Origin: an uncultured Bacteroidia bacterium
Lineage (GTDB): Bacteria; Bacteroidota; Bacteroidia; Bacteroidales; UBA932
Direction of reading: 5' to 3'
Assembly (NCBI GenBank): GCA_902768665.1
Contig: CACXMA010000006.1
Location: forward strand, 1 to 64,000
DNA length: 64,000 nucleotides
Part shown: positions 8,603 to 63,623 of the stretch, in pieces
Numbering within the stretch: the stretch's first letter is position 1
How the letters are laid out: the number at the start of each line of letters is the position of its first letter
Notes under the pieces: generated by a model
Told to the model about the DNA's origin: nothing
The model's database searches: none
The model's input: the letters and a program-made list of their open reading frames with translations, nothing else
Translations under genes and position numbers: made by a program

Positions 8603-8706
8603 AAGCATATAAGAAAAGTTTCCGGAGGTCAGATTTTTCTGTTTCTTAAGTCGAATTTTCTGTTTCTTAACTGTCTTCAGGCCGCATGAGACTTATATTT
8701 GCGGCC

Positions 8707-9840
8707 ATGAGACAGATGCTTTATACCTTGCTTCGGACCGCCGTGACGGGAGTGTCACTGGGGGTCCTCGCTTTGTCCTGCAGCGACCTTCTCGCAGGAC
8801 AGGAAGACAGCGGTGAAAACCGCGGAATGCTGCAGTGGAATTTCGCCTCCGCGCCCCTCATCGAGGCCATGACGCGTGCGGCCGGGGAGATTCCCGACAC
8901 GAACGCTTTCCTGCTGACCGTCCGGGACGCGTCCGGGAAGACGCTCTATGACGGAACGTATGGCGCCTCGCCGACATCGCTGCTTGTCGAGCCAGGCAGC
9001 TATACGGTCACGGCCCGATCCTGTGCTTTTTCCGCTCCGGCCTTCTCCAAGCCGCTTTTCGGGGATGAACAAGTCATCGTGGTCCGGAAAAACGAGACGG
9101 CCCGCGCCGTGCTCACTTGCCGCCAGCTCAATGCCGGCATGCGCCTGAGGGTGGCGTCCAATTTCCTGACCGCCTACCCCGCTTCCACCCTCCACCTGAA
9201 GTCGGCCGACGGCTCCCTGCTCTACGGCTATCGGGAGAGCCGGATCGCGTATTTCCGCCCCGGCCCGGTGTCGCTGGTGATGAGTACTTCCGGGCAGGGC
9301 GACCAGACGCTCTATACCCGCACGCTGTCCGCGCCCGAAATCCTTACCCTTTCCGTTTCGGCGGCCACCTCATCCGCGTCCCAGGGCGGCTCGCTGTCCA
9401 TCCAGCTGGATACGGCGAGGACCTGGCTCGGTGACAGCTATGTCATTGGAGGTGAGAACGGTGGCGGTGGCGGCGGGTCTGCCGGCAGCAGCATCCCCAC
9501 GGCGTTCAGCGTCCCGGCCGCCAAGGAGAACATCGGGGCGGAAGAGGTCTGGGTCTACGGCTACATCGTCGGCGGGGACCTGAGCTCCAGCGCCACGAAG
9601 ATGACCACCTCCGCGCCCTTTTCCTCGGACACGCATTTCGCCATCGCCGTGCGCTCCTCCGTCACGGACAAGCAGCAGTGCCTGTCCGTGGAGCTCCGAA
9701 AAGGCGAGATCCGCACGGCGCTCAACCTCAAGGACCACCCCGAGAACCTCGGCCGTCAGGTTTTCCTCAAGGGCAACCTCGTCGAAGCCTACTACGGCCT
9801 TCCCGGCCTGAAAGCCGTCACCGACTTCGAGCTGCGGTAA
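8707..9840 (+). CDS. Putative DUF4493/DUF6359-type exported lipoprotein
   Basis: The protein starts with a hydrophobic signal segment ending LALSC near residue 25, a plausible though relaxed lipoprotein cleavage site. The next part (GMLQWNFASAP ... FLLTVRDASGKTLYDGTY ... VEPGSYTVTARS) has the look of DUF4493, a beta-sandwich family common on Bacteroidota surface proteins. After a Gly-rich linker (GGGGGGS) comes an OB-fold-like domain with EEVWVYGYIVGG and LKGNLVEAYYGLPGLK, as in DUF6359. The function is unknown; such proteins are usually surface-exposed. ATG codons at 8686, 8707 and 8716 are all possible. A TATATTTG at 8694-8701 would rule out 8686 if it is the promoter, so I chose 8707. Confidence 0.7.
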   Translation: MRQMLYTLLRTAVTGVSLGVLALSCSDLLAGQEDSGENRGMLQWNFASAPLIEAMTRAAGEIPDTNAFLLTVRDASGKTLYDGTYGASPTSLLVEPGSYTVTARSCAFSAPAFSKPLFGDEQVIVVRKNETARAVLTCRQLNAGMRLRVASNFLTAYPASTLHLKSADGSLLYGYRESRIAYFRPGPVSLVMSTSGQGDQTLYTRTLSAPEILTLSVSAATSSASQGGSLSIQLDTARTWLGDSYVIGGENGGGGGGSAGSSIPTAFSVPAAKENIGAEEVWVYGYIVGGDLSSSATKMTTSAPFSSDTHFAIAVRSSVTDKQQCLSVELRKGEIRTALNLKDHPENLGRQVFLKGNLVEAYYGLPGLKAVTDFELR

Positions 9841-9848
9841 GAATGGGA

Positions 9849-9934
9849 AGTCATCCATCCTGGAAGCCATTATTATGGATGACTCCCTTAAATAGGGCCA
9901 GTCATCCATAATTACACGCGAAAATATGGATCAC
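9849..9934. repeat. REP-like palindrome pair upstream of the RAYT gene
   Basis: Two inverted repeats lie back to back. The first pairs AGTCATCCAT (9849-9858) with ATGGATGACT (9875-9884), a perfect 10-base stem around 16 bases. The second pairs GTCATCCATA (9901-9910) with TATGGATCAC (9925-9934) with one mismatch. Both share the GTCrTCCAT core with the pair after the gene and with a third pair near 63.5 kb. This paired arrangement is what is seen for REP/BIME sequences next to their RAYT gene. Confidence 0.8.
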
Positions 9935-9938
9935 TATC

Positions 9939-10856
9939 ATGAGCAGAACTGAATTACAATGCCAGGAGGCTTTTCTGGCCCATGGACCCTACTATCAAGT
10001 TGCAACGTCACATACTGTCACGGAATCATTGTTCCGTACTCAGGAGATGGTGCGAACGGTTATAACGCTGTCCGGTTACTATGCGAGGAAAATGAATGTC
10101 AGGGTCCTTGGTTATGAAGTGATGTTGACACACATGCATCACATTTATGCGGCGACCAGGGAACAGGCTCTCGCCCATACAAATGCTGTTTTGGAGCACT
10201 ACCTTCGTTGCGATTTCACGACTGGCATGAAAGTAAGCCTACGGGAGTTGGAACCAAAAGCTTTTGAGATAACGGATATAAAACAATTCCGTAACGAGAT
10301 GGCGTATGTGGTCAGAAACCGTTTTGTCGTTGATCCGGAAGCGAACCTGTTTGGAGACAGAAACGGCTCGGGTTTCCTGTACTTCAATGAGATGTTGGAA
10401 CTGTTTCCGCCGTCAAAACCCCTCTCCGGCTACGGCGTTGTCGCTAAAAGAAAGCTGCTACATATACGGAATGGGGAGGATATCCCAGGATTAACTGTTC
10501 TGGATGGAATGATTGATCCCCGCAGTTTCGTGGATTATAAGCTGGTAGAGTTGATGTTTCCCAATGCCCGTAAGTTTGTCATGTGGGTGATGAAGAATCT
10601 GGAAGCTCAAGTGGAGCTGTCCCTCAGCCGGGGGGAAAGTCCCATGCTTAACGATGACGAAATCTTGAATCGTGTTTTCAAGAAGTGTAGAGAACGGTTT
10701 GGCAAGAGCGGTCCTTCTCAACTGGATTTGGAACAACGACGGATACTTGCTGTAGAGGTTCGTAGGGAATACTATGCGACCAATGCACAATTGTGCCGGT
10801 GTCTGTCTCTGACGCCGGATATAGTAGACCGTCTCTTTCCTCTGTCAGCAAAGTAG
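9939..10856 (+). CDS. REP-associated tyrosine transposase (RAYT, TnpA-REP family)
   Basis: RAYT proteins are single-copy, domesticated relatives of IS200/IS605 Y1 transposases that bind and cut REP palindromes. The 305-residue protein has the family layout: a segment starting YYQVATSHTV, then VLGYEVMLTHMHHIYA, where His65-Met-His67 would be the HUH metal-binding pair (the usual MPNHVH has become MLTHMH), then EMAYVVRNRF, where Tyr123 is the likely catalytic tyrosine. The C-terminal 90 residues (from MLNDDEILNRVF) look like the helix-turn-helix domain often found after the RAYT core. The gene is clearly more AT-rich than its neighbours and is flanked on both sides by palindrome pairs. No accessory genes are present. 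Assignment is from motif order, not from a search. Confidence 0.8.
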   Translation: MSRTELQCQEAFLAHGPYYQVATSHTVTESLFRTQEMVRTVITLSGYYARKMNVRVLGYEVMLTHMHHIYAATREQALAHTNAVLEHYLRCDFTTGMKVSLRELEPKAFEITDIKQFRNEMAYVVRNRFVVDPEANLFGDRNGSGFLYFNEMLELFPPSKPLSGYGVVAKRKLLHIRNGEDIPGLTVLDGMIDPRSFVDYKLVELMFPNARKFVMWVMKNLEAQVELSLSRGESPMLNDDEILNRVFKKCRERFGKSGPSQLDLEQRRILAVEVRREYYATNAQLCRCLSLTPDIVDRLFPLSAK

Positions 10857-10940
10857 TCGTCCATAATAGGGCGGAAAAATATGGACGACCCTTATAAAAA
10901 CAAGGAGTCGTCCATATTTGGGGCCTTATAGATGGATGAG
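10856..10940. repeat. REP-like palindrome pair downstream of the RAYT gene
   Basis: GTCGTCCATA (10856-10865) pairs perfectly with TATGGACGAC (10880-10889) around a 14-base loop and touches the RAYT stop codon. A second unit has GTCGTCCATA (10907-10916) facing ATGGATGAG (10932-10940) with mismatches. The loops are alike in the corresponding units near 63.5 kb (GCGGAAAAAT here, GCGAAAAAA there). The second unit ends just before the mazG stop codon of the opposite strand. Confidence 0.8.
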
Positions 10941-10942
10941 GC

Positions 10943-11800
10943 TTACATTCCTTTTTCCTTCGCCTCGTCCCAGATGGCGTCCATCTCGGCGAGCGAAAGG
11001 TCCTTCAGCTGACGGCCCTTGCGGATCGTCTGCTCCTCCAGGTAGGTGAAACGGCGGCGGAACTTGTCGCAGCTGCGGCTGAGCGCCGTGTCGGGATTGA
11101 GGCCGTAGAGACGGGCGGCGTTGATAAGGGCGAAGAGCAGGTCTCCGAGCTCACCCTCGGCCCGGCTGTAGGCCTCCACGAATCCTTCCGAAGAGCCGGG
11201 GGCCGGGGCGAACTGCGAGGGCTCGACGAAGCCGTCTTCCTTCTCCATGGCGTCGAGCTCGGTCTGGAACTCGCCGACTTCCTCGCGGACCTTGTCCCAG
11301 ACGTCATGCCTGTCTTCCCAGTCGAAACCGACGCCGCGGGCCTTGTCCTGCATGAAAAAGGCCTTGAGGATGGACGGAAGGGACTCGGGGACGCCGGAAA
11401 GGACGCGCTTGTTCCCGCCTTTCTCCTTGGTTTTCATCATCTCCCAGTTGTGGGACACCTCGTCGGCGCTGGCCACCTCCAGGCCGCCGAAAACGTGCGG
11501 ATGCCGGAAGACCATCTTGTCGGAGACGCCTTCTGCGACATCGGCGATGTCGAAACGGCCTTCCTCCTCCGCGATGCGGGAATAGAAGACGATGTGAAGG
11601 AGCACGTCGCCGAGCTCCTTGCGAAGGTCCCTGTCATCCTCCTTGAGGACGGCGTCGCTGAGCTCGTAGACTTCCTCGAGCGTCATCGGGCGAAGGGATT
11701 TTGTCGTCTGGGCGGCGTTCCAGGGGCATTTTGCCCGGAGCTCGACCATGATATCGAGAAGGCGCCCGAAAGCGGCCAGTTTTTCTTCTTTCGTATGCAT
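10943..11800 (-). CDS. mazG: Nucleoside triphosphate pyrophosphohydrolase MazG
   Basis: MazG hydrolyses (d)NTPs to monophosphates and pyrophosphate and helps clean the nucleotide pool. The 285-residue protein has two MazG domains. The first has CPWNAAQTTKSL and the metal-binding pattern EEVYELSDAV with KELGDVLLHIVFY; the second has EEVGEF and EGELGDLLFALINAARL. The start was set at ATG 11798-11800 (MHTKEEKLAAF), because the longer open frame would run back into the upstream gene. It starts one base after the stop of the WG-repeat gene, so the two are probably co-transcribed. Length agrees with the two-domain family. Confidence 0.93.
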   Translation of the reverse strand: MHTKEEKLAAFGRLLDIMVELRAKCPWNAAQTTKSLRPMTLEEVYELSDAVLKEDDRDLRKELGDVLLHIVFYSRIAEEEGRFDIADVAEGVSDKMVFRHPHVFGGLEVASADEVSHNWEMMKTKEKGGNKRVLSGVPESLPSILKAFFMQDKARGVGFDWEDRHDVWDKVREEVGEFQTELDAMEKEDGFVEPSQFAPAPGSSEGFVEAYSRAEGELGDLLFALINAARLYGLNPDTALSRSCDKFRRRFTYLEEQTIRKGRQLKDLSLAEMDAIWDEAKEKGM

Positions 11801-11801
11801 G

Positions 11802-14546
11802 CTATTCAAACCATTCGGGGTGGGAAACATAGAGCTGCAGGGCCTTGGCGAACATCTCTCCGGCGCTAAGCCGGAAGGTGTCATGGGGTTCGTAGTAGGG
11901 GTTGGCGTAGAAGCGGTCAAAGCAGGCTTTGGCTTTCTGGTACTGGGCATCGCTTTCATACCAGACGCGGCCCGGGTACCATTCCACGGGCGGAACGGCC
12001 TTGACCGGCTCCAGCACCAGGCCCTCGTACATGTCGCTGTTGATCAGGTTTTCAGAGACTTTGACATAGCCAAAGGAGCCCAGGTCGGCCCGCTTGGTCT
12101 CGCGCAGCTGCTCAGCGTCGGAAACGATCCATCCCCCCGCACTGGCGGAGAAGCGCTGAACGGTGCCGAGGCGGATTCTGCCGCCAGGAAGCTTCTGGAT
12201 GTCAATGCGGTAGCGATGTGGAGGCGTCATGAAATAGTAGGACTTGTCGCCGTCGGTCCACTTTACCCGCTCGCTAGCAAAGCTCACGATCATCTTGACA
12301 AAATCCTCATACTCGGGATTATAATAGCCGACAACGGTCGCATAACCGGTGAAATACAGATAGGTCTTGCCGTTCTCCTCCTTCTTGACGCCGTTGACGA
12401 CGGCGGGGCTGAGGAAGGTCGCCGCGAACTGCGGGATCGGTTTGTCGTTCATATAGACCGTGTGGCGGGTGCCCGGTTTGATGTATACGCCGAAAAGGGT
12501 CTCGGCCGGTCCCATCGGCGTGTCGAAGGACTTGCCCTTCGGCGCGCTGACGAGATAGACGTCGGCTTCGAGGTCGCCGGAATCGATATTGTCCAGTTTT
12601 TTCCAGCTGCGGTGGGCGCTGACGCAGTAAAGCCCCGCCTCTTCCAGCTCTTCCGGCTGGCTAAGCCGGGCTATGACCGTCTGCTCGCCGGCCTCGCGGG
12701 CTACCAGCGTAAGTACGTATCCTTCGGCATCGACGGTCCGGAACTTCTTGCTGTCATATTCCCAGCCGAGGATGCTGCCTTTCACTTCCGGCAGCACGAT
12801 GATGCGGACGGTGTCCCGGACGTAAATCGGTGCCTTCGTGCGGTGGACGGTCGCCGCCCCGCCCTCGACTTTGACGGTGAGGAGCACCTCCGGCTTGACT
12901 ATTTTCTTGAAATGGGCCGTCAGGGTGACATCCTGGCTCACCCAGGCATAGGATGTGGCATAATTTTCCATCACCTTTCCCTCAATATTCGAGGTCCAAT
13001 GCGAGAACTCCCAGTCCTTGTTGGCCTTTGCCGCAGCATTGTAGGAGTACTGCTTCTCAAACTCGTGGCGATCCCAACTGGACGTTACCGTACCGCCCTC
13101 CTCGGGATCGGCCACAAGCGTCAGTTTGTATTCGGGGAACGTCTGTCGGGGCGGATCCTGCTCCTCTTCTTCGCCGCCGTTATGGCCGCCATTTTTCTTT
13201 TCACCTTCCTTCTCCTCAATAACCGGCGGTTCTTCCGGCGGCTGCGGTTCGATGATGGTTTCTTCGATCGGTTCCTCCGGCTTCACCGGCTTTTCCGGCG
13301 CAGGCCCGGCGGCTTCCGGATCGATCGTCCCGGCCTTACGGACATGCCCGAAGCGCGCCGCCCGGTCAAAGACCACGAGAATCTCACCGTCCAGGTTGCT
13401 TACCGCCGCTCCTTCCGCGTATCTGCCAGACTTTTCCAGTCCGTATGTCATGGCGACATAGCCGCCCGGATAGATGCCCGTAAAGTCAATCAGCTCCTGG
13501 TTTCGGAGGCGGAGCGTGCCGTCGCTCTGGAAGATGTAAGCGAAGTCATAATCCATCAGGATGGCACAGCCGTCCGTGAAACCTTTCTGGTCGAAGTCGT
13601 TGAAAAGGCGGAGTTTGCGTTCCTCCCCGCCGACCCGGCCGTAATCCTTCATCTGCGCATCCATCATGTGCAGGGCGGACCATTCGGAGCGGAGGAAACT
13701 CCGGCCATTTTTGTCAAAGCTCAGGCCGTCGCAGTCCGCCGCAGCGGCATTTCCCTGCAGGTCGATATATTTCTGCTTCGCGGGAATCAGGGCCCAGCCC
13801 TGACTGAAGGCGCAGGGGGCGTCCCATCCGAGATCCAGCCCCTCGGGCACGACCTCGTTCCCATTCTTATCGATGATTCCCCAGCGGTTGCCGCTCATCG
13901 TAAAGAAGGCGCGGCCTTCGCCGAAGTCACTGACGTTCTTATACTTGGCAGGGATGACCGTCTTGCCGGCGGCATCCACAAAACCCCAGAGCCGGGAACC
14001 AATGTTCTGCACCGCCCGGAGTCCGTCCTTCAACGGACGCATCTCGGGGCGCTCACACCGCCCGCTGGCCCCCCATTCGGAGAGAACCGCCTTCCCGTCC
14101 TTGCTGATATATGTCCAGTCATCTCCATTCTGGATCCAGCTGAGTCCGTCGACAAAGATGCCGCCGTCCGTCACCTTTTCCGACAGGAGCGTATAGCTGC
14201 CGTCCGGCTTGACGATGGCCCAACGACGGTCTTTTTGGCGGATCAGCAGGCAGGCTCCGCCGCTGAATGGATGTGTTTCATTGTAGGTACGGGCGACTTT
14301 CCAGTCAAATCCGCCCAGCATGGCCTGCTTCTCCAGGGAATACAGGGCCACGCCGTTGTTATAGTCCCACAGAGTAACAATGCCTTCACCGACAGACTCG
14401 ATATGGGTCTCCGCCCCCACATCCACGCGGACGGTCTTGTCCGTAATATGGGGAACGGGGGGATCGTTCTGGGCAAAGGCGGAGGGTGCCGTAACTGCCA
14501 ACACGGTCGACAAAAGAATCAGCGAAGGAGAAAAGCGGTTCTTCAT
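11802..14546 (-). CDS. Exported WG-repeat protein with InlB-type repeat
   Basis: The 914-residue protein starts with a signal peptide (MKNRFSPSLILLSTVLA...SAFA). The first half contains WG-type repeats such as WGFVDAAGKTVIPAKY and WGIIDKNGNEVVPEG, beta-rich units common in Bacteroidota exported proteins. A linker rich in Pro and Glu follows (about residues 405-465). Next is a divergent InlB B-repeat-like domain (LTLVADPEEGGTV ... VTLTAHFKK). The C-terminal 350 residues show no family I recognise. Start ATG 14544-14546 was preferred over an upstream ATG because it opens directly on the signal peptide. It is the first gene of a two-gene unit with mazG and is divergent from recF. Function unknown; probably envelope-located. 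Confidence 0.8.
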   Translation of the reverse strand: MKNRFSPSLILLSTVLAVTAPSAFAQNDPPVPHITDKTVRVDVGAETHIESVGEGIVTLWDYNNGVALYSLEKQAMLGGFDWKVARTYNETHPFSGGACLLIRQKDRRWAIVKPDGSYTLLSEKVTDGGIFVDGLSWIQNGDDWTYISKDGKAVLSEWGASGRCERPEMRPLKDGLRAVQNIGSRLWGFVDAAGKTVIPAKYKNVSDFGEGRAFFTMSGNRWGIIDKNGNEVVPEGLDLGWDAPCAFSQGWALIPAKQKYIDLQGNAAAADCDGLSFDKNGRSFLRSEWSALHMMDAQMKDYGRVGGEERKLRLFNDFDQKGFTDGCAILMDYDFAYIFQSDGTLRLRNQELIDFTGIYPGGYVAMTYGLEKSGRYAEGAAVSNLDGEILVVFDRAARFGHVRKAGTIDPEAAGPAPEKPVKPEEPIEETIIEPQPPEEPPVIEEKEGEKKNGGHNGGEEEEQDPPRQTFPEYKLTLVADPEEGGTVTSSWDRHEFEKQYSYNAAAKANKDWEFSHWTSNIEGKVMENYATSYAWVSQDVTLTAHFKKIVKPEVLLTVKVEGGAATVHRTKAPIYVRDTVRIIVLPEVKGSILGWEYDSKKFRTVDAEGYVLTLVAREAGEQTVIARLSQPEELEEAGLYCVSAHRSWKKLDNIDSGDLEADVYLVSAPKGKSFDTPMGPAETLFGVYIKPGTRHTVYMNDKPIPQFAATFLSPAVVNGVKKEENGKTYLYFTGYATVVGYYNPEYEDFVKMIVSFASERVKWTDGDKSYYFMTPPHRYRIDIQKLPGGRIRLGTVQRFSASAGGWIVSDAEQLRETKRADLGSFGYVKVSENLINSDMYEGLVLEPVKAVPPVEWYPGRVWYESDAQYQKAKACFDRFYANPYYEPHDTFRLSAGEMFAKALQLYVSHPEWFE

Positions 14547-27217: not shown

Positions 27218-27220
27218 ACC

Positions 27221-29905
27221 TTGAATACCCTCTATCTCATTGACGGACACGCGCTCATCTTCAAGATGTACTACGCGTTCCTCCGCCGGCCGATGATCAA
27301 CTCGAAGGGGATGGACACTTCCATCCTCTTCGGTTTCACGAAGTATCTGCTCGAGCTGCTCGAGCGGCGCAGGCCGACGCACCTCGCCGTAGCCTTCGAT
27401 CCCCCCGGCGGCACCTTCCGCAATGAGATGTTCCCCGAGTACAAGGGAACGCGCCCGCCGACGCCCCAGCCGATCATCGATGCGCTGGAGCCCCTGACCG
27501 AGCTGCTGCAGGCCTTCCGGGTGCCCGTCTTGATGGAGCGGGGCTTCGAGGCCGACGACGTGATCGGTTCCATGGCCCGCCGCGCCGAAGCGGCCGGCTT
27601 CACCGTCTATATGGTGACCCCGGACAAGGATTACGGCCAGCTGATCACCCCGAATGTGCTGCAGTACAAGCCCGGAAAGAGCGGCGGCGACGACGAAGTG
27701 ATCGGTCCGGCCGAGCTGTCGGAGAAGTGGGGCATCGCCTCGCCCGCGCAGATGATCGACATGCTGACCCTCTGCGGCGACACGGCCGACAATGTCCCCG
27801 GCGTCCGCGGCATCGGCGAGGTCGGCGCCGCGAAGCTCATCGCCAAATACGGCTCGGTGGACGGCATTTACGCCCATCTTTCCGAGCTGACGCCCCGTCA
27901 GCAGGGGCAGTTCGAGGAGGCCCGGGACCATATCGCTCTTTCCCGTGCCCTCGTGACCATCAAAACGGATATTCCGCTCGCCGTCACGGACGACCAGATG
28001 CGGGTCCCGACCGCCTGCGACCCTGCCCTGGCGGATCTTTTTGAGAAATACGAATTCAATTCGCTGAAGCGCCATATCGCGCATCTTTCCGCCGCGCACT
28101 CCACTCCGAGCGGCTCCTCTGTCATTTCGAGCGAAGTCGAGAAATCTCCTTACGGCGACTATAAGGAACTTCCCGCGGCCGAATTCATCGCTGCGGCCCG
28201 CTCCGCCGGGCGGGTGGGGATAGCTGTCCTCCAAAATGGCGGTTTTCAAGGACAGACTGCCGGAATTGCCGCCTCTGTCCTCGAAAAAGGCGTTTTCCAA
28301 GGACAGGTCGGGGAGGTTCGGGCGCTGCTGGAGGACGCGGCCATCGAAAAGGTCGGTTTCGACCTGAAAAAGACGGCACGGATGCTGGCGGAGGAGGGGA
28401 TCGCCCTTGCCGGCCGCTGGGTGGATATCGCGCTGATGCACTATCTGATCAATCCCGAGCGCAGCCATGCCGCCGATATCCTCGTCAAGAGTTACCTCGG
28501 GGTCGATCTCGTGGAGGAAAGCGTGACCCCGGCCGAGGCGGAACCGGATCTCTTCGGAGAGAGTTCTGTCATTTCGAGTGAAGGCGCTGCCGAAATCGAG
28601 AAATCTATGCGCGAAGCGGCGCTGCTGCTGCCGTTGGCGGAAAAAGTGGCCGAGGAGCTGCGGGCGTCGGGTATGGAAAAGCTCTACGACGAGATCGAGG
28701 AGCCGGTGGCGAAGGTCCTGGCGAAGATGGAGGTCGCGGGCGTGAAGATCGAGATGGCCCCGCTCGAGGCCTTTGCCGATCAGCTGCGTGCGGAAATCAT
28801 TGAAAGAGAGGCGCGTATCCGTGAAATGGCCGGCGTGCCGGATCTGAACATCTCCTCGCCGAAGCAGGTGGGTGATGTGCTGTTCGACAAGCTGCAGCTG
28901 GATCCGAAGGCGAAGAAAAGCGCCCGGGGGCAGTACTCCACGGACGAAACGACGCTCCTGGATATCGCCGACCGCCATCCGATCGTGGACGAGATTCTCG
29001 AGTTCCGCGCCGCCAAGAAACTGCTCTCGACCTATATCGAGCCCTTCCCGGGCTACATCTCTCCCCGTGACGGACGCATCCATACGACCTTCAACCAGGC
29101 CCTGACCGCGACCGGACGCCTGTCGAGCTCCAACCCCAACCTCCAGAACATCCCGATCCGGACGGAGCGGGGACGCGGCATCCGCGCCGCCTTCGTTCCG
29201 GGCAAGAAAGACGGGCTGATCCTGTCGGCGGACTATTCGCAGATCGAGCTTCGCATCATGGCCCATCTCAGCGGGGACGAGCATCTCTGCACGGCGTTCC
29301 GGGAGGGAGTCGATGTCCACAGCACCACGGCCGCCAAGATCTTCGGCGTCCCGGTCGCGGAGGTAACGCCGGATCAGCGCAGAAGGGCCAAGACGACCAA
29401 TTTCGGCATCATGTACGGCATCTCCTCCTTCGGCCTGGCCCAGCGACTTCGCATCGGAAGGAAGGAGGCCAAAGCCTTGATTGACGACTATTTCGCCGGT
29501 TTTCCGGCCATCCGCGGCTTCATTGAGAGCTGCACGGTATTCGCCCGCGAGAACGGTTATGCCGAGACCCTTTTCGGCCGCCGCCGGTATATTCCGGACA
29601 TCCATTCCCACAACGCGACCGTCCGCGCCCTGGCCGAGCGCAACGCCGTCAACGCCCCGATCCAGGGCACCGCGGCGGATATCATCAAGCTCGCGATGGT
29701 GGAGGTGGACCGGCGGATGACGGAAAAGGGGATGCGCAGCCGGATGGTGCTGCAGATCCACGACGAACTCGTCTTTGATGTCGTGCCGGAAGAGGCCGAA
29801 GAGCTCAGGGCGCTGGTCGTGGACGCCATGGAACATGTCATCGCCCTCACCGTTCCGCTGACGGTGGAGTGCAATCTCGGAAAGAACTGGCTGGAGGCGC
29901 ATTAG
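27221..29905 (+). CDS. polA: DNA polymerase I with repeat-derived insertions
   Basis: PolA fills gaps and removes RNA primers. The 894-residue protein has a 5' nuclease domain (about 1-290; LIDGHALIFKMYYAF, ERGFEADDVIGSMA, TPDKDYGQL), a degraded 3'-5' exonuclease domain (about 310-480) lacking the DxE catalytic pair (VGIAVLQ where VAFDTE is usual), and an intact polymerase domain with DYSQIELRIMAHLSGD, RRRAKTTNFGIMYG and LQIHDELVFDV. The start is TTG at 27221: the conserved LIDGHALIF lies before the first ATG at 27266. Odd: copies of two palindromic repeat families lie in frame at residues 300-309, 335-362 and 449-462, in and beside the dead exonuclease domain. The sigma factor gene follows after one base. 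Confidence 0.95.
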   Translation: MNTLYLIDGHALIFKMYYAFLRRPMINSKGMDTSILFGFTKYLLELLERRRPTHLAVAFDPPGGTFRNEMFPEYKGTRPPTPQPIIDALEPLTELLQAFRVPVLMERGFEADDVIGSMARRAEAAGFTVYMVTPDKDYGQLITPNVLQYKPGKSGGDDEVIGPAELSEKWGIASPAQMIDMLTLCGDTADNVPGVRGIGEVGAAKLIAKYGSVDGIYAHLSELTPRQQGQFEEARDHIALSRALVTIKTDIPLAVTDDQMRVPTACDPALADLFEKYEFNSLKRHIAHLSAAHSTPSGSSVISSEVEKSPYGDYKELPAAEFIAAARSAGRVGIAVLQNGGFQGQTAGIAASVLEKGVFQGQVGEVRALLEDAAIEKVGFDLKKTARMLAEEGIALAGRWVDIALMHYLINPERSHAADILVKSYLGVDLVEESVTPAEAEPDLFGESSVISSEGAAEIEKSMREAALLLPLAEKVAEELRASGMEKLYDEIEEPVAKVLAKMEVAGVKIEMAPLEAFADQLRAEIIEREARIREMAGVPDLNISSPKQVGDVLFDKLQLDPKAKKSARGQYSTDETTLLDIADRHPIVDEILEFRAAKKLLSTYIEPFPGYISPRDGRIHTTFNQALTATGRLSSSNPNLQNIPIRTERGRGIRAAFVPGKKDGLILSADYSQIELRIMAHLSGDEHLCTAFREGVDVHSTTAAKIFGVPVAEVTPDQRRRAKTTNFGIMYGISSFGLAQRLRIGRKEAKALIDDYFAGFPAIRGFIESCTVFARENGYAETLFGRRRYIPDIHSHNATVRALAERNAVNAPIQGTAADIIKLAMVEVDRRMTEKGMRSRMVLQIHDELVFDVVPEEAEELRALVVDAMEHVIALTVPLTVECNLGKNWLEAH
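28120..28147 (+). repeat. TGTCATTTCGAGCGAAGTCG repeat copy inside polA
   Basis: A 28-base copy of a dispersed repeat with the core GTCATTTCGAGCGAAGTCGA followed by GAAATCT. It is identical over 28 bases to the intergenic copy at 30532-30559. Here it is translated in frame as SVISSEVEKS in polA, at the joint between the 5' nuclease and the dead exonuclease domains. Confidence 0.9.
28225..28305 (+). repeat. Two 30-base palindromes with TGTCCT/AGGACA ends inside polA
   Basis: The first unit runs 28225-28254 and the second 28276-28305, spaced by 51 bases (17 codons). Each begins TGTCCT, has AAAA and TTTT arms around a short GC-rich loop, and ends AGGACA. They are translated as VLQNGGFQGQ and VLEKGVFQGQ, so PolA carries a small peptide repeat made of palindromic DNA. 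I see no other copy of this family in the window. Confidence 0.85.
28565..28606 (+). repeat. Longer variant of the TGTCATTTCGAG repeat inside polA
   Basis: TCTGTCATTTCGAGTGAAGG, then a GCGCTGCCGAA segment, then ATCGAGAAATCT. The two outer arms match the short repeat at 28120-28147; the middle is longer (about 14 extra bases). It is translated in frame as part of PolA residues 449-462, near the end of the degraded exonuclease domain. Confidence 0.85.
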
Positions 29906-33741: not shown

Positions 33742-35229
33742 ATGAAAAAGATTCTCGTCATCCTCGCAGCGGCCGTTCTTGTCCTGGCTGCATGCAAAAG
33801 CAACAAAAAAAGCGAAACCCCGGCCCGCGAAAGCTGGAGCCTCACCGAAGTCTACGGCGACACCGTCGCCTTCCACCCCGAATGGACCTACAGCTCCGTG
33901 GTCTATGAAGTCAACATCCGCCAGTTTACCCCGGAAGGCACCTTCAAGGCCTTCGAGGAGCATCTTCCGCGCCTGAAAGACCTCGGCGTCGACTGCATCT
34001 GGCTGATGCCGATGTATCCGATCGGCCTTGAGGGCCGCAAGGAGACGGAGGAGAGCCTCGGCTCCTATTACGCCATCTCCGACTACAAGGCGGTCAACCC
34101 CGAGTTCGGTACCATGGAAGAGTTCGACCACATGCTCGCCACCGCCCACAGCCTCGGCCTCAAGGTGATCCTCGACTGGGTCGCCAACCAGACCGCTCCG
34201 GACCACGTGTGGATGACCACGAACCCCGAATTCTACGAGCGCGACGAGAACGGGAACGCCATCTGGGAATATGACTGGACGGACACCCGCAGCCTCGACT
34301 ATGAGAACCACGACCTCTGGGCCGCGATGGACGACGCCATGCGCTTCTGGCTCGACAAGGGCGTGGACGGCTTCCGCTGCGACGCCGCCGGCGATATGCC
34401 CGCCGAGTTCTGGCAGCAGGTCATGCCGAAGATCAACGCCGACTACCCCGAGGCCTACTTCCTTGCCGAAGCCGAGCGCGACAACCTCGCCGACTGTGTC
34501 CAGACCTTTGACGCCAATTATGCCTGGGAGCTCCACCACCTGCTGAATTCCCTCGCCCAGGGCACCAAGACCGTCCAGGACCTCAAGGATTATCTCGCCC
34601 GCGACCGCGCCCGCTTCCCGAAGGAAGCCTTCCGCCTCACCTTCACGTCCAACCACGACGAGAACTCCTGGAGCGGCACCGAATTCGAGCGTGAGGGCAT
34701 CTTCGCAGACGCCTGCGCCGTCCTGTGCTTCACCCTGCCGCAGAGCCAGCCGCTCATCTATACCGGTCAGGAAATCGGCTTGAGCCGCCGTCTCAAATTC
34801 TTCGACAGGGACTCCATCACCGACTGGACGCCGAACGAGTATACGGAATTCTTCAAGTCCCTGACCGCGCTCAAGCACGGGAATCCCGCCCTTGCCGCCG
34901 GCGAGAAGGGCGGTGAGATGGTCTGGCTCGCGGACATGCCGGAAGGCGTCGTCGGCTTCAGCCGCGAGGTCGAAGGCAACAAGGTCATCGTGCTGGCCAA
35001 CTTCGGCGTTCCGCCGGCAGAGCCCGCCGAGGCCGTCGAGCAGGAGAACAACTCCAACCGTGCCACCGGCACCCAGGCCGCCGTGCCTTTCCTCAATGCC
35101 GAATCCGCCCCCGTCAGCCTGACCCTTCAGCTCGACGGTACCTATACGGATAACCACGGCTTTACCGCTGACGAGGGCCGCCTCGACATCATGCTGGCTC
35201 CCGGCGAGTATTACATCCTGACCAAGTAA
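33742..35229 (+). CDS. GH13 alpha-amylase-family lipoprotein
   Basis: A 495-residue lipoprotein (MKKILVILAAAVLVLAAC, Cys18) with a compact GH13 barrel. Key sites: WTYSSVVYEVNIRQFTPEG at the start, nucleophile Asp in GVDGFRCDAAGDMP, acid/base Glu in FLAEAERDN, and SNHDENSW for the third acid. It lacks an added binding domain, so it probably acts on smaller oligosaccharides after the larger enzyme. The C-terminal beta-domain holds an inserted hydrophilic stretch (about residues 433-455, AEAVEQENNSNRATGTQAA). It starts 13 bases after the first GH13 gene. Confidence 0.92.
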   Translation: MKKILVILAAAVLVLAACKSNKKSETPARESWSLTEVYGDTVAFHPEWTYSSVVYEVNIRQFTPEGTFKAFEEHLPRLKDLGVDCIWLMPMYPIGLEGRKETEESLGSYYAISDYKAVNPEFGTMEEFDHMLATAHSLGLKVILDWVANQTAPDHVWMTTNPEFYERDENGNAIWEYDWTDTRSLDYENHDLWAAMDDAMRFWLDKGVDGFRCDAAGDMPAEFWQQVMPKINADYPEAYFLAEAERDNLADCVQTFDANYAWELHHLLNSLAQGTKTVQDLKDYLARDRARFPKEAFRLTFTSNHDENSWSGTEFEREGIFADACAVLCFTLPQSQPLIYTGQEIGLSRRLKFFDRDSITDWTPNEYTEFFKSLTALKHGNPALAAGEKGGEMVWLADMPEGVVGFSREVEGNKVIVLANFGVPPAEPAEAVEQENNSNRATGTQAAVPFLNAESAPVSLTLQLDGTYTDNHGFTADEGRLDIMLAPGEYYILTK

Positions 35230-48560: not shown

Positions 48561-48566
48561 GTCAAT

Positions 48567-48596
48567 CGGGCACGAAAACGGGCCTTTTCGTGCCCG
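48567..48596. terminator. Hairpin after deoD, CGGGCACGAAAA arms
   Basis: CGGGCACGAAAA (48567-48578) pairs perfectly with TTTTCGTGCCCG (48585-48596) around CGGGCC, seven bases after the deoD stop. The A/T-rich inner arms and lack of an outer T-run make it an atypical terminator. It shares its arm sequence with the next hairpin. Confidence 0.55.
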
Positions 48597-48614
48597 AATG
48601 GAAGAAAAAACAAC

Positions 48615-48650
48615 AAACGGGCACGAAAACGCGTGTTTTTGTGCCCGTTT
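48615..48650. terminator. Second hairpin with the same arms, near tRNA-Leu
   Basis: AAACGGGCACGAAAAC (48615-48630) pairs with GTTTTTGTGCCCGTTT (48635-48650) with one G-T pair, around GCGT. It lies 9 bases from the 3' end of the minus-strand tRNA, so it could end that transcript. The shared arms with the hairpin at 48567-48596 suggest duplication. Confidence 0.55.
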
Positions 48651-63510: not shown

Positions 63511-63596
63511 GGAGTCGTCCATCTTTAGGCCCTAAAAGATGGATGAGTGGCAATAAAATGGGCACCCGTCCATAAATAAGTGCGAAAAAATGGACG
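63511..63596. repeat. REP-like palindrome pair before the biotin carrier gene
   Basis: The first unit pairs TCCATCTTTAGG (63518-63529) with CCTAAAAGATGGA (63531-63543), with GTCG and TGAG flanks as in 10907-10940. The second has CGTCCA (63567-63572) facing TGGACG (63591-63596) with a GCGAAAAAA loop, like the unit at 10856-10889. The two unit types appear in swapped order compared with the copy next to the RAYT gene. They fill the 117-base gap between the OadG-like and biotin carrier genes. Confidence 0.8.
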
Positions 63597-63623
63597 ACAC
63601 AATAGAAACAAACGAAAAGCAAT

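Follow-up and report, generated by a model that had tools for sequence, protein, structure and literature searches.

RAYTs resemble transposases that host genomes have retained, and biochemical work has explained how a few of them recognise their repeats, with cleavage demonstrated for RAYTs in the available part of one report (PMC8266576). The survey by Quentin et al. 2018 (PMC6006769, accessible text) took Pfam Y1_Tnp matches at E 0.01 as its starting point; its subclass 2.6 (Bertels group 5) is mostly from Bacteroidetes, has a median length of 179 aa and is described with "atypical secondary structures"; in-frame insertions within tnpA genes are described there as well. REPs lying in frame within genes, dimers included, have also been described, as have Rickettsia RPEs (PMC3733652, in its available part). 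The name RayT is also used in a Chryseobacterium paper (PMC11194056), which addresses a different question in the text that is accessible, and no paper on a long-form RAYT was found in the open-access literature, where most subscription papers are missing.

The window, that is, the whole 64,000-nucleotide stretch analysed here, contains a gene for a 305-aa protein (coding part, 9939-10853) bracketed by two pairs of GTCRTCCAT hairpins, one on each side, as the preliminary description had claimed (Table 1); the span that it gave for the unit, 9849-10940, was right. When imperfect arms are counted, four hairpins surround the gene, with a pitch of 51 upstream and downstream alike. GTCRTCCAT occurs nine times in the window versus 1.07 expected, the maximum over 100 shuffles being four; six copies flank the gene, two lie at 63.5 kb and one is solitary at 34327. 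As single-stranded DNA, each of the window's three GTCRTCCAT doublets folds better than all of 200 shuffles (z -4.8, -7.4 and -4.6), and in both gene-flanking doublets the best fold pairs the inner arms of adjacent hairpins together. Among 12 hairpins of this family (family A), changes on both sides were seen in 7 of 13 pairs, a count that is not significant by itself because at least seven such pairs occurred in 143 of 500 column shuffles. In addition, the covariation score of the same hairpins was reached by none of 500 column shuffles, and their hairpin register outscored all six slid versions. The gene is AT-rich, as had been noted, with a GC content of 0.477 versus 0.599 for the window, a value equally low in 29 of 631 overlapping windows.

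Table 1. Positions of the RAYT-like gene, its neighbours and the hairpin doublets in the window
Feature	Position	Strand	Remarks
Upstream neighbour, DUF4493 + DUF6359 protein	8686..9840	+	homologues directly adjoin the closest RAYT relatives (L010, L011)
Upstream hairpin 1	9850..9883		arms GTCATCCAT/ATGGATGAC
Upstream hairpin 2	9901..9934		+51 nt; one outer-arm mismatch
Long-form RAYT-like gene	9939..10856	+	305 aa; open reading frame, conserved residues, predicted fold
Downstream hairpin 1	10856..10889		arms GTCGTCCAT/ATGGACGAC; first base is the last base of the stop codon
Downstream hairpin 2	10907..10940		+51 nt; outer arm imperfect
Downstream neighbour, MazG pyrophosphohydrolase	10943..11959	-	
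Doublet of another family	28223..28307		TGTCCTC arms; pitch 51; in frame within polA, 27218-29902 (+)
Family B doublet	48566..48648		CGGGCACG arms
Dispersed family A doublet	63514..63598		hairpins 63514-63547 and 63565-63598; just past a stop codon

No Pfam or NCBIfam model reached threshold with the window protein, the best in Pfam being a sub-threshold HIT match (E 0.14) and NCBIfam returning nothing. The preliminary description had named the absence of a Y1 transposase match beforehand as an outcome against its RAYT/REP reading. We read this absence as a failure of sensitivity, because, of the 20 members of the protein's alignment, 3 are hit by Pfam Y1_Tnp and 10 by NCBIfam REP_Tyr_transpos at E 0.01, and because the fold agrees. 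Searched against the PDB, the 20-member profile matched ISDra2 TnpA weakly (E 0.033). The AlphaFold2 model (50 sequences) had a mean pLDDT of 90, and its top Foldseek match was 4er8_A, the E. coli RAYT with a REP hairpin (E 5.2e-5; TM 0.54 on the target and 0.33 on the query), followed by IS200-type transposases (ISDra2/IS608 TnpA); since unrelated proteins appear among the matches from E 0.012, the first match alone is strong in itself. The protein carries the HUH motif (H65-M-H67), a catalytic Tyr123 within YVVRN, and an extra C-terminal half with three helices at its end; M62, H65, H67, Y123, N127 and Q284 are invariant in all 73 aligned sequences, the window's included. The modified motif MLTHMHH was correctly read earlier and occupies residues 62-68, but its Asn-to-Thr change does not mark a branch, contrary to what had been proposed: residue 64 is N in 67 of the 73 sequences, T in 4 and D in 1 (the remaining one was not printed), so that the window's Thr is a small variation.

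We applied a doublet test (arms paired at no fewer than 7 of 8 bases, at most 450 nt from the gene, pitch 40 to 120) to 74 homologue loci, of which 5 came from the window genome, 29 were returned by the search and 40 were picked down the list; being partly hand-picked, they are not a random sample, and two (L006 and L007) were missed by tblastn and positioned by hand. Like-armed hairpin pairs were found on at least one side in 52 of these 74 loci and on both sides in 26, with none in 370 dinucleotide shuffles. The nearest centre-to-centre pitch on 78 locus-sides was 50 (6), 51 (54), 52 (13), 53 (2), 41 (2) or 102 (1), thus 50-52 on 73 of them, and the arm sequences varied from locus to locus. 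When the arms had to be perfect over 8 nt and pitch was ignored, groups of at least two like-armed hairpins were obtained in 33 of the 74 loci versus 1 of 1480 shuffles; this stricter test scored the window as a miss, some of its outer arms being imperfect. The doublet test detected none at 22 of the 74 loci, including two of the window genome's five genes (L005 and L006, the latter near a contig end). The GTAG/GTGG foot tag was absent, GTRG being present in 7.3% of feet versus 8.3% of shuffled ones over the 52 loci and in at least half of the feet at only four of them. With orientation called on 14-15 central bases and one doublet taken per locus-side (n=77), 51 doublets were direct versus 15 inverted, with 11 ties, and a REPIN proper was rejected on this ground. 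In 29 RAYT-core loci outside the genus, where the search was wider in that whole loci were scanned, like-armed pairs lay at 52-60 nt in three and at 79-164 nt in four others; the former suggest that the pitch is possibly not special to the long-form family, and a pitch of about 51 nt may be older than the long form. Hairpins of the CCTACAAGGTTTTGAAAACCTTGTAGG type at 52-60 nt were seen at L322, L333 and L335, RAYT-core genes outside the genus.

Three palindrome families were traced in the window genome, with 6 (A), 12 (B) and 5 (C) sites. Family A was searched with a covariance model trained on the six window hairpins, the six hairpins outside the window thus being independent, and comprises at least six doublets, all with a pitch of 51 (150 of 276 candidates scored). 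Three are in the window, and the search of the genome that the preliminary description had suggested returned, beyond the gene and 63.5 kb, two more on C4 and one on C14, together with a solitary match (E 8.9). For four of the six hairpins outside the window, E-values taken singly were 0.03-0.17; it is mainly their pitch that makes these four credible. The dispersed family A doublets found thus number four, suggesting that movement is rare or old. The one at 63.5 kb is followed by a gene for a putative biotin carboxyl carrier protein. Families B and C, counted by exact-arm patterns, gave 20 hairpins at 12 sites with eight complete doublets and 8 hairpins at 5 sites with three complete doublets, respectively, all with a pitch of 51, and the reversed-pattern control gave none for either. 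The presumed family B RAYT (G000:C1:111557-112426) adjoins a doublet with the same arms. Family C was tied to a gene on C11 by a 12-nt word repeated upstream of it, and the doublet test beside that gene found nothing; two family C doublets (C14:106383 and C14:111663) are nearly identical. Doublets with other arms were located at G000:C1 near 47568 (L211, GTGAACAAA arms) and at G000:C14 near 19605 (L219, TGTCCTC arms). No cognate RAYT was found for the TGTCCTC and GTGAACAAA doublets, and no palindromes were found beside the RAYT gene at C1:68673. In the window and 400 kb of the same genome, a family-blind scan revealed 14 doublets with a pitch of 51-53 nt plus two clusters, one at 62 nt and one at 69 nt, and in 400 kb of G140 it revealed five doublets at 51-52 nt and two at 43 and 62 nt; when all 864 kb were shuffled by letter within 300-nt blocks, a single cluster appeared, at 48 nt. 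The scanned contigs were picked for known genes or doublets, so that these densities are not unbiased.

The dispersed sites known in the window genome number 23 (family A, 4; B, 11; C, 5; TGTCCTC, 2; GTGAACAAA, 1), and the genomic context was inspected for 21 of them, all but C12:75921 and C16:21399. Seven lie in frame within genes, named by Pfam or homology as truB, a BtuF-like binding protein gene, a THUMP-like methyltransferase gene, polA, an aroD-aroA fusion, ribF and an rsmF-like gene. Among the remaining 14, some also fall within long open frames, for example L214 and L222. All three intragenic doublets of family A use one reading frame, as do the three of family B, and the remaining frames are closed by stops only partly. 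In the BtuF-like gene, all 18 alignable relative rows (16 loci; 11 further loci without the anchor motif were left out) have linkers shorter than that of the window genome with its insert. Linkers are also short in most of 28 relatives of the methyltransferase, with extra sequence in those best by E-value (L280-L282) and a few more. No clean empty site was found for truB and polA, where relatives have unrelated stretches of variable length, and insertion is therefore indistinguishable from replacement there. The polA doublet sits between the Pfam matches of the 5'-3' and 3'-5' exonuclease parts. Two copies of the sequence GTCATTTCGAGCG are present on the window's + strand (28121 and 30533), one of them within polA beside the hairpins; this sequence is also found in the TruB region of another species (L155) and may be another dispersed repeat.

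Of 200 genomes sampled from the genus, the window genome among them, 163 contained relatives of the protein, at 1 to at least 11 per genome; in the window genome, the window gene is joined by four paralogues of 24-27% identity, which makes five such genes. Of the 56 loci returned by a scan of named genomes, 55 carry the label Bacteroidales or Bacteroidia, and the host animals, where the records name one, are ruminants. The sole other label belongs to a homologue of 34% identity (L115) on a contig labelled Fibrobacter sp., which may be either a binning error or a transfer. Phylum-wide, 108 of 395 genomes had a match at E 1e-6, and among the matches listed, only those of the window genome's five genes were near full length, the others covering mainly the core. 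In a core-domain tree, which was rooted at the midpoint and included one misextracted and very long outgroup row (L310), the 73 proteins of the genus split with 97/100 from 29 RAYT-core proteins elsewhere in the phylum, which include short forms and carry no labels from the Quentin et al. 2018 sequences.

Over the 52 loci with doublets, protein identity and arm similarity were weakly correlated (Spearman 0.146; as high in 3 of 2000 permutations). All five protein pairs of at least 78% identity had arm stretches of at least 11 nt in common; sharing was mixed at 60-73% identity, for example absent between L081 and L082, whose proteins are 68% identical, and arm similarity was near background below 60%. 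The divergence of the RAYT at its own locus is unusual. Between the window and G086 (L010), the proteins of the DUF6359 gene and the WG-repeat gene (partial) are 84% and 87% identical, the RAYTs are 51% identical and the palindromes differ; the DNA flanks align at 82-92%, and nothing aligned across window 9842-12245, a block that contains mazG as well as the RAYT with its hairpins; mazG lay outside the G086 stretch compared. This contrast fits rapid divergence as well as an exchange for a related allele. In L011 the DUF6359 gene is 54% identical; the window RAYT, L010 and L011 form a 100/100 clade, and a DUF6359 homologue adjoins the RAYT in all three. A comparison of the WG-repeat gene (window 12246-14504) with L010 and L093 showed that its orientation relative to the RAYT is reversed in G086, where it adjoins the downstream hairpins of the RAYT, suggesting a rearrangement breakpoint near the hairpins.

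Given the fold, the catalytic residues, the hairpin pairs at 52 of the 74 loci and the dispersed doublets, the RAYT/REP reading of the preliminary description is supported, and the window gene is best read as a RAYT with cognate palindromes. In our reading, the family is a new subclass of long-form RAYTs whose hairpins are untagged and lie mostly in direct pairs. The gene product would be an HUH/Y1 tyrosine transposase of the RAYT (TnpA-REP) kind, lengthened by a C-terminal half of about 150 residues, and may recognise its own long-looped hairpin, with locus-specific arms, as single-stranded DNA; the protein presumably has a part that reads these arms. The natural unit appears to be at least two hairpins repeated at about 51 nt, mostly in direct orientation, and cleavage and rejoining by Tyr123, a chemistry proposed because other RAYTs cleave in the available text of PMC8266576, may occasionally copy or move a doublet elsewhere in trans. 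Most copies would land between genes and some in frame within tolerant protein stretches, while the enzyme would remain at its DUF6359-adjacent locus and diverge fast jointly with its palindromes. To this explanation as a whole, an HUH/Y1 RAYT that acts on its own locus-specific single-stranded hairpins and occasionally moves doublets, we assign a probability of about 0.8. A broader proposal, possible but doubtful, is a genus-wide radiation of mutually exclusive enzyme-hairpin pairs, in which each enzyme would read its own arms only, the C-terminal half would span two hairpins and so set the 51-nt pitch, enzyme and palindromes would turn over faster than their neighbours through an arms race or avoidance of cross-talk, and the 17-codon pitch would keep intragenic doublets translatable.

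An unlikely alternative is a domesticated descendant of a RAYT, which would bind the hairpins beside its gene for self-regulation or locus protection and no longer move anything, the dispersed doublets being fossil. Such a protein would suit the few dispersed copies of family A, most with weak single-hairpin scores, and the adjoining DUF6359 homologue in three species, but not the catalytic residues, which are intact in 73 of 73 sequences, the two nearly identical family C doublets on C14, or the exact arms of family B at 12 sites. It is quite improbable that the whole REP-RAYT-REP cassette is mobile as one element, like an IS200-type insertion sequence: although the unaligned block between well-aligned flanks in the window and G086 may be taken to favour this, the three DUF6359-adjacent relatives form one clade, and the genome holds no identical second copy, the paralogues being only 24-27% identical. 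An IS200/IS605 element was rejected on the absence of near-identical full copies from the genome, which is 88% complete. Hairpins that lie near gene ends and whose single strands fold well could also be transcription terminators, or form RNA structures that have nothing to do with the protein, but their arms match across the gene, change between homologues and keep a nearly fixed pitch, and hairpins also occur in arrays and within reading frames, so that we give this explanation hardly any credence; in the window and three loci, tRNA alone reached the Rfam threshold, a result on which a terminator or known RNA was rejected.

The family is large and easily overlooked in gut Bacteroidales, and most of its enzymes that were examined adjoin palindromes of their own, different at each locus, which makes it a good natural experiment on DNA recognition by RAYT-like enzymes. 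Since the 52 diverged loci include pairs that share arms (at 78% identity or more) and a pair that does not (L081 and L082), the recognition code may be approachable by comparison. In addition, a family can occur in most of the genomes sampled from a genus and still escape a survey based on Pfam: Y1_Tnp at E 0.01 misses the window protein and 17 of the 20 members of its alignment.

In comparison with known systems, the window protein resembles the E. coli RAYT (4er8; subclass 2.2 in the available text of PMC6006769) in its core of HUH and a single Tyr with YxxxN, and the locus resembles that of E. coli RAYT/TnpA-REP in having hairpin repeats beside the gene and elsewhere and a gene without near-identical copies. 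However, the window protein, at 305 aa, is longer than the 4er8 chain (165 residues) and has an extra C-terminal half, and unlike E. coli REPs its hairpins have no GTAG foot, loops of about 16 nt and mostly direct 51-nt doublets. Subclass 2.6, as described in the accessible part of PMC6006769, is similar in phylum, in its untagged atypical hairpins and in the presence of copies elsewhere in the genome; because it too is described with atypical structures there, we treat the GTAG tag as a mark of canonical REPs and not of RAYTs as such. The short RAYT-core loci L322, L333 and L335 may be of the subclass 2.6 kind, with the hairpins of L322 more than 1 kb from the gene, whereas the window protein differs in its length and the proteins of the genus form a separate clade (97/100). 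As in REPINs and BIMEs, the dispersed unit is a hairpin doublet, but the doublets of the window family are mostly direct rather than inverted and have a nearly fixed pitch. The intragenic doublets resemble the dimers within genes, DNA-repair genes included, that encode 20-30 aa in the available text of PMC3733652; the CGTC-tagged REPs described there had no candidate enzyme, whereas, of the three families seen here within genes, two (A and B) each have one flanked by the same arms.
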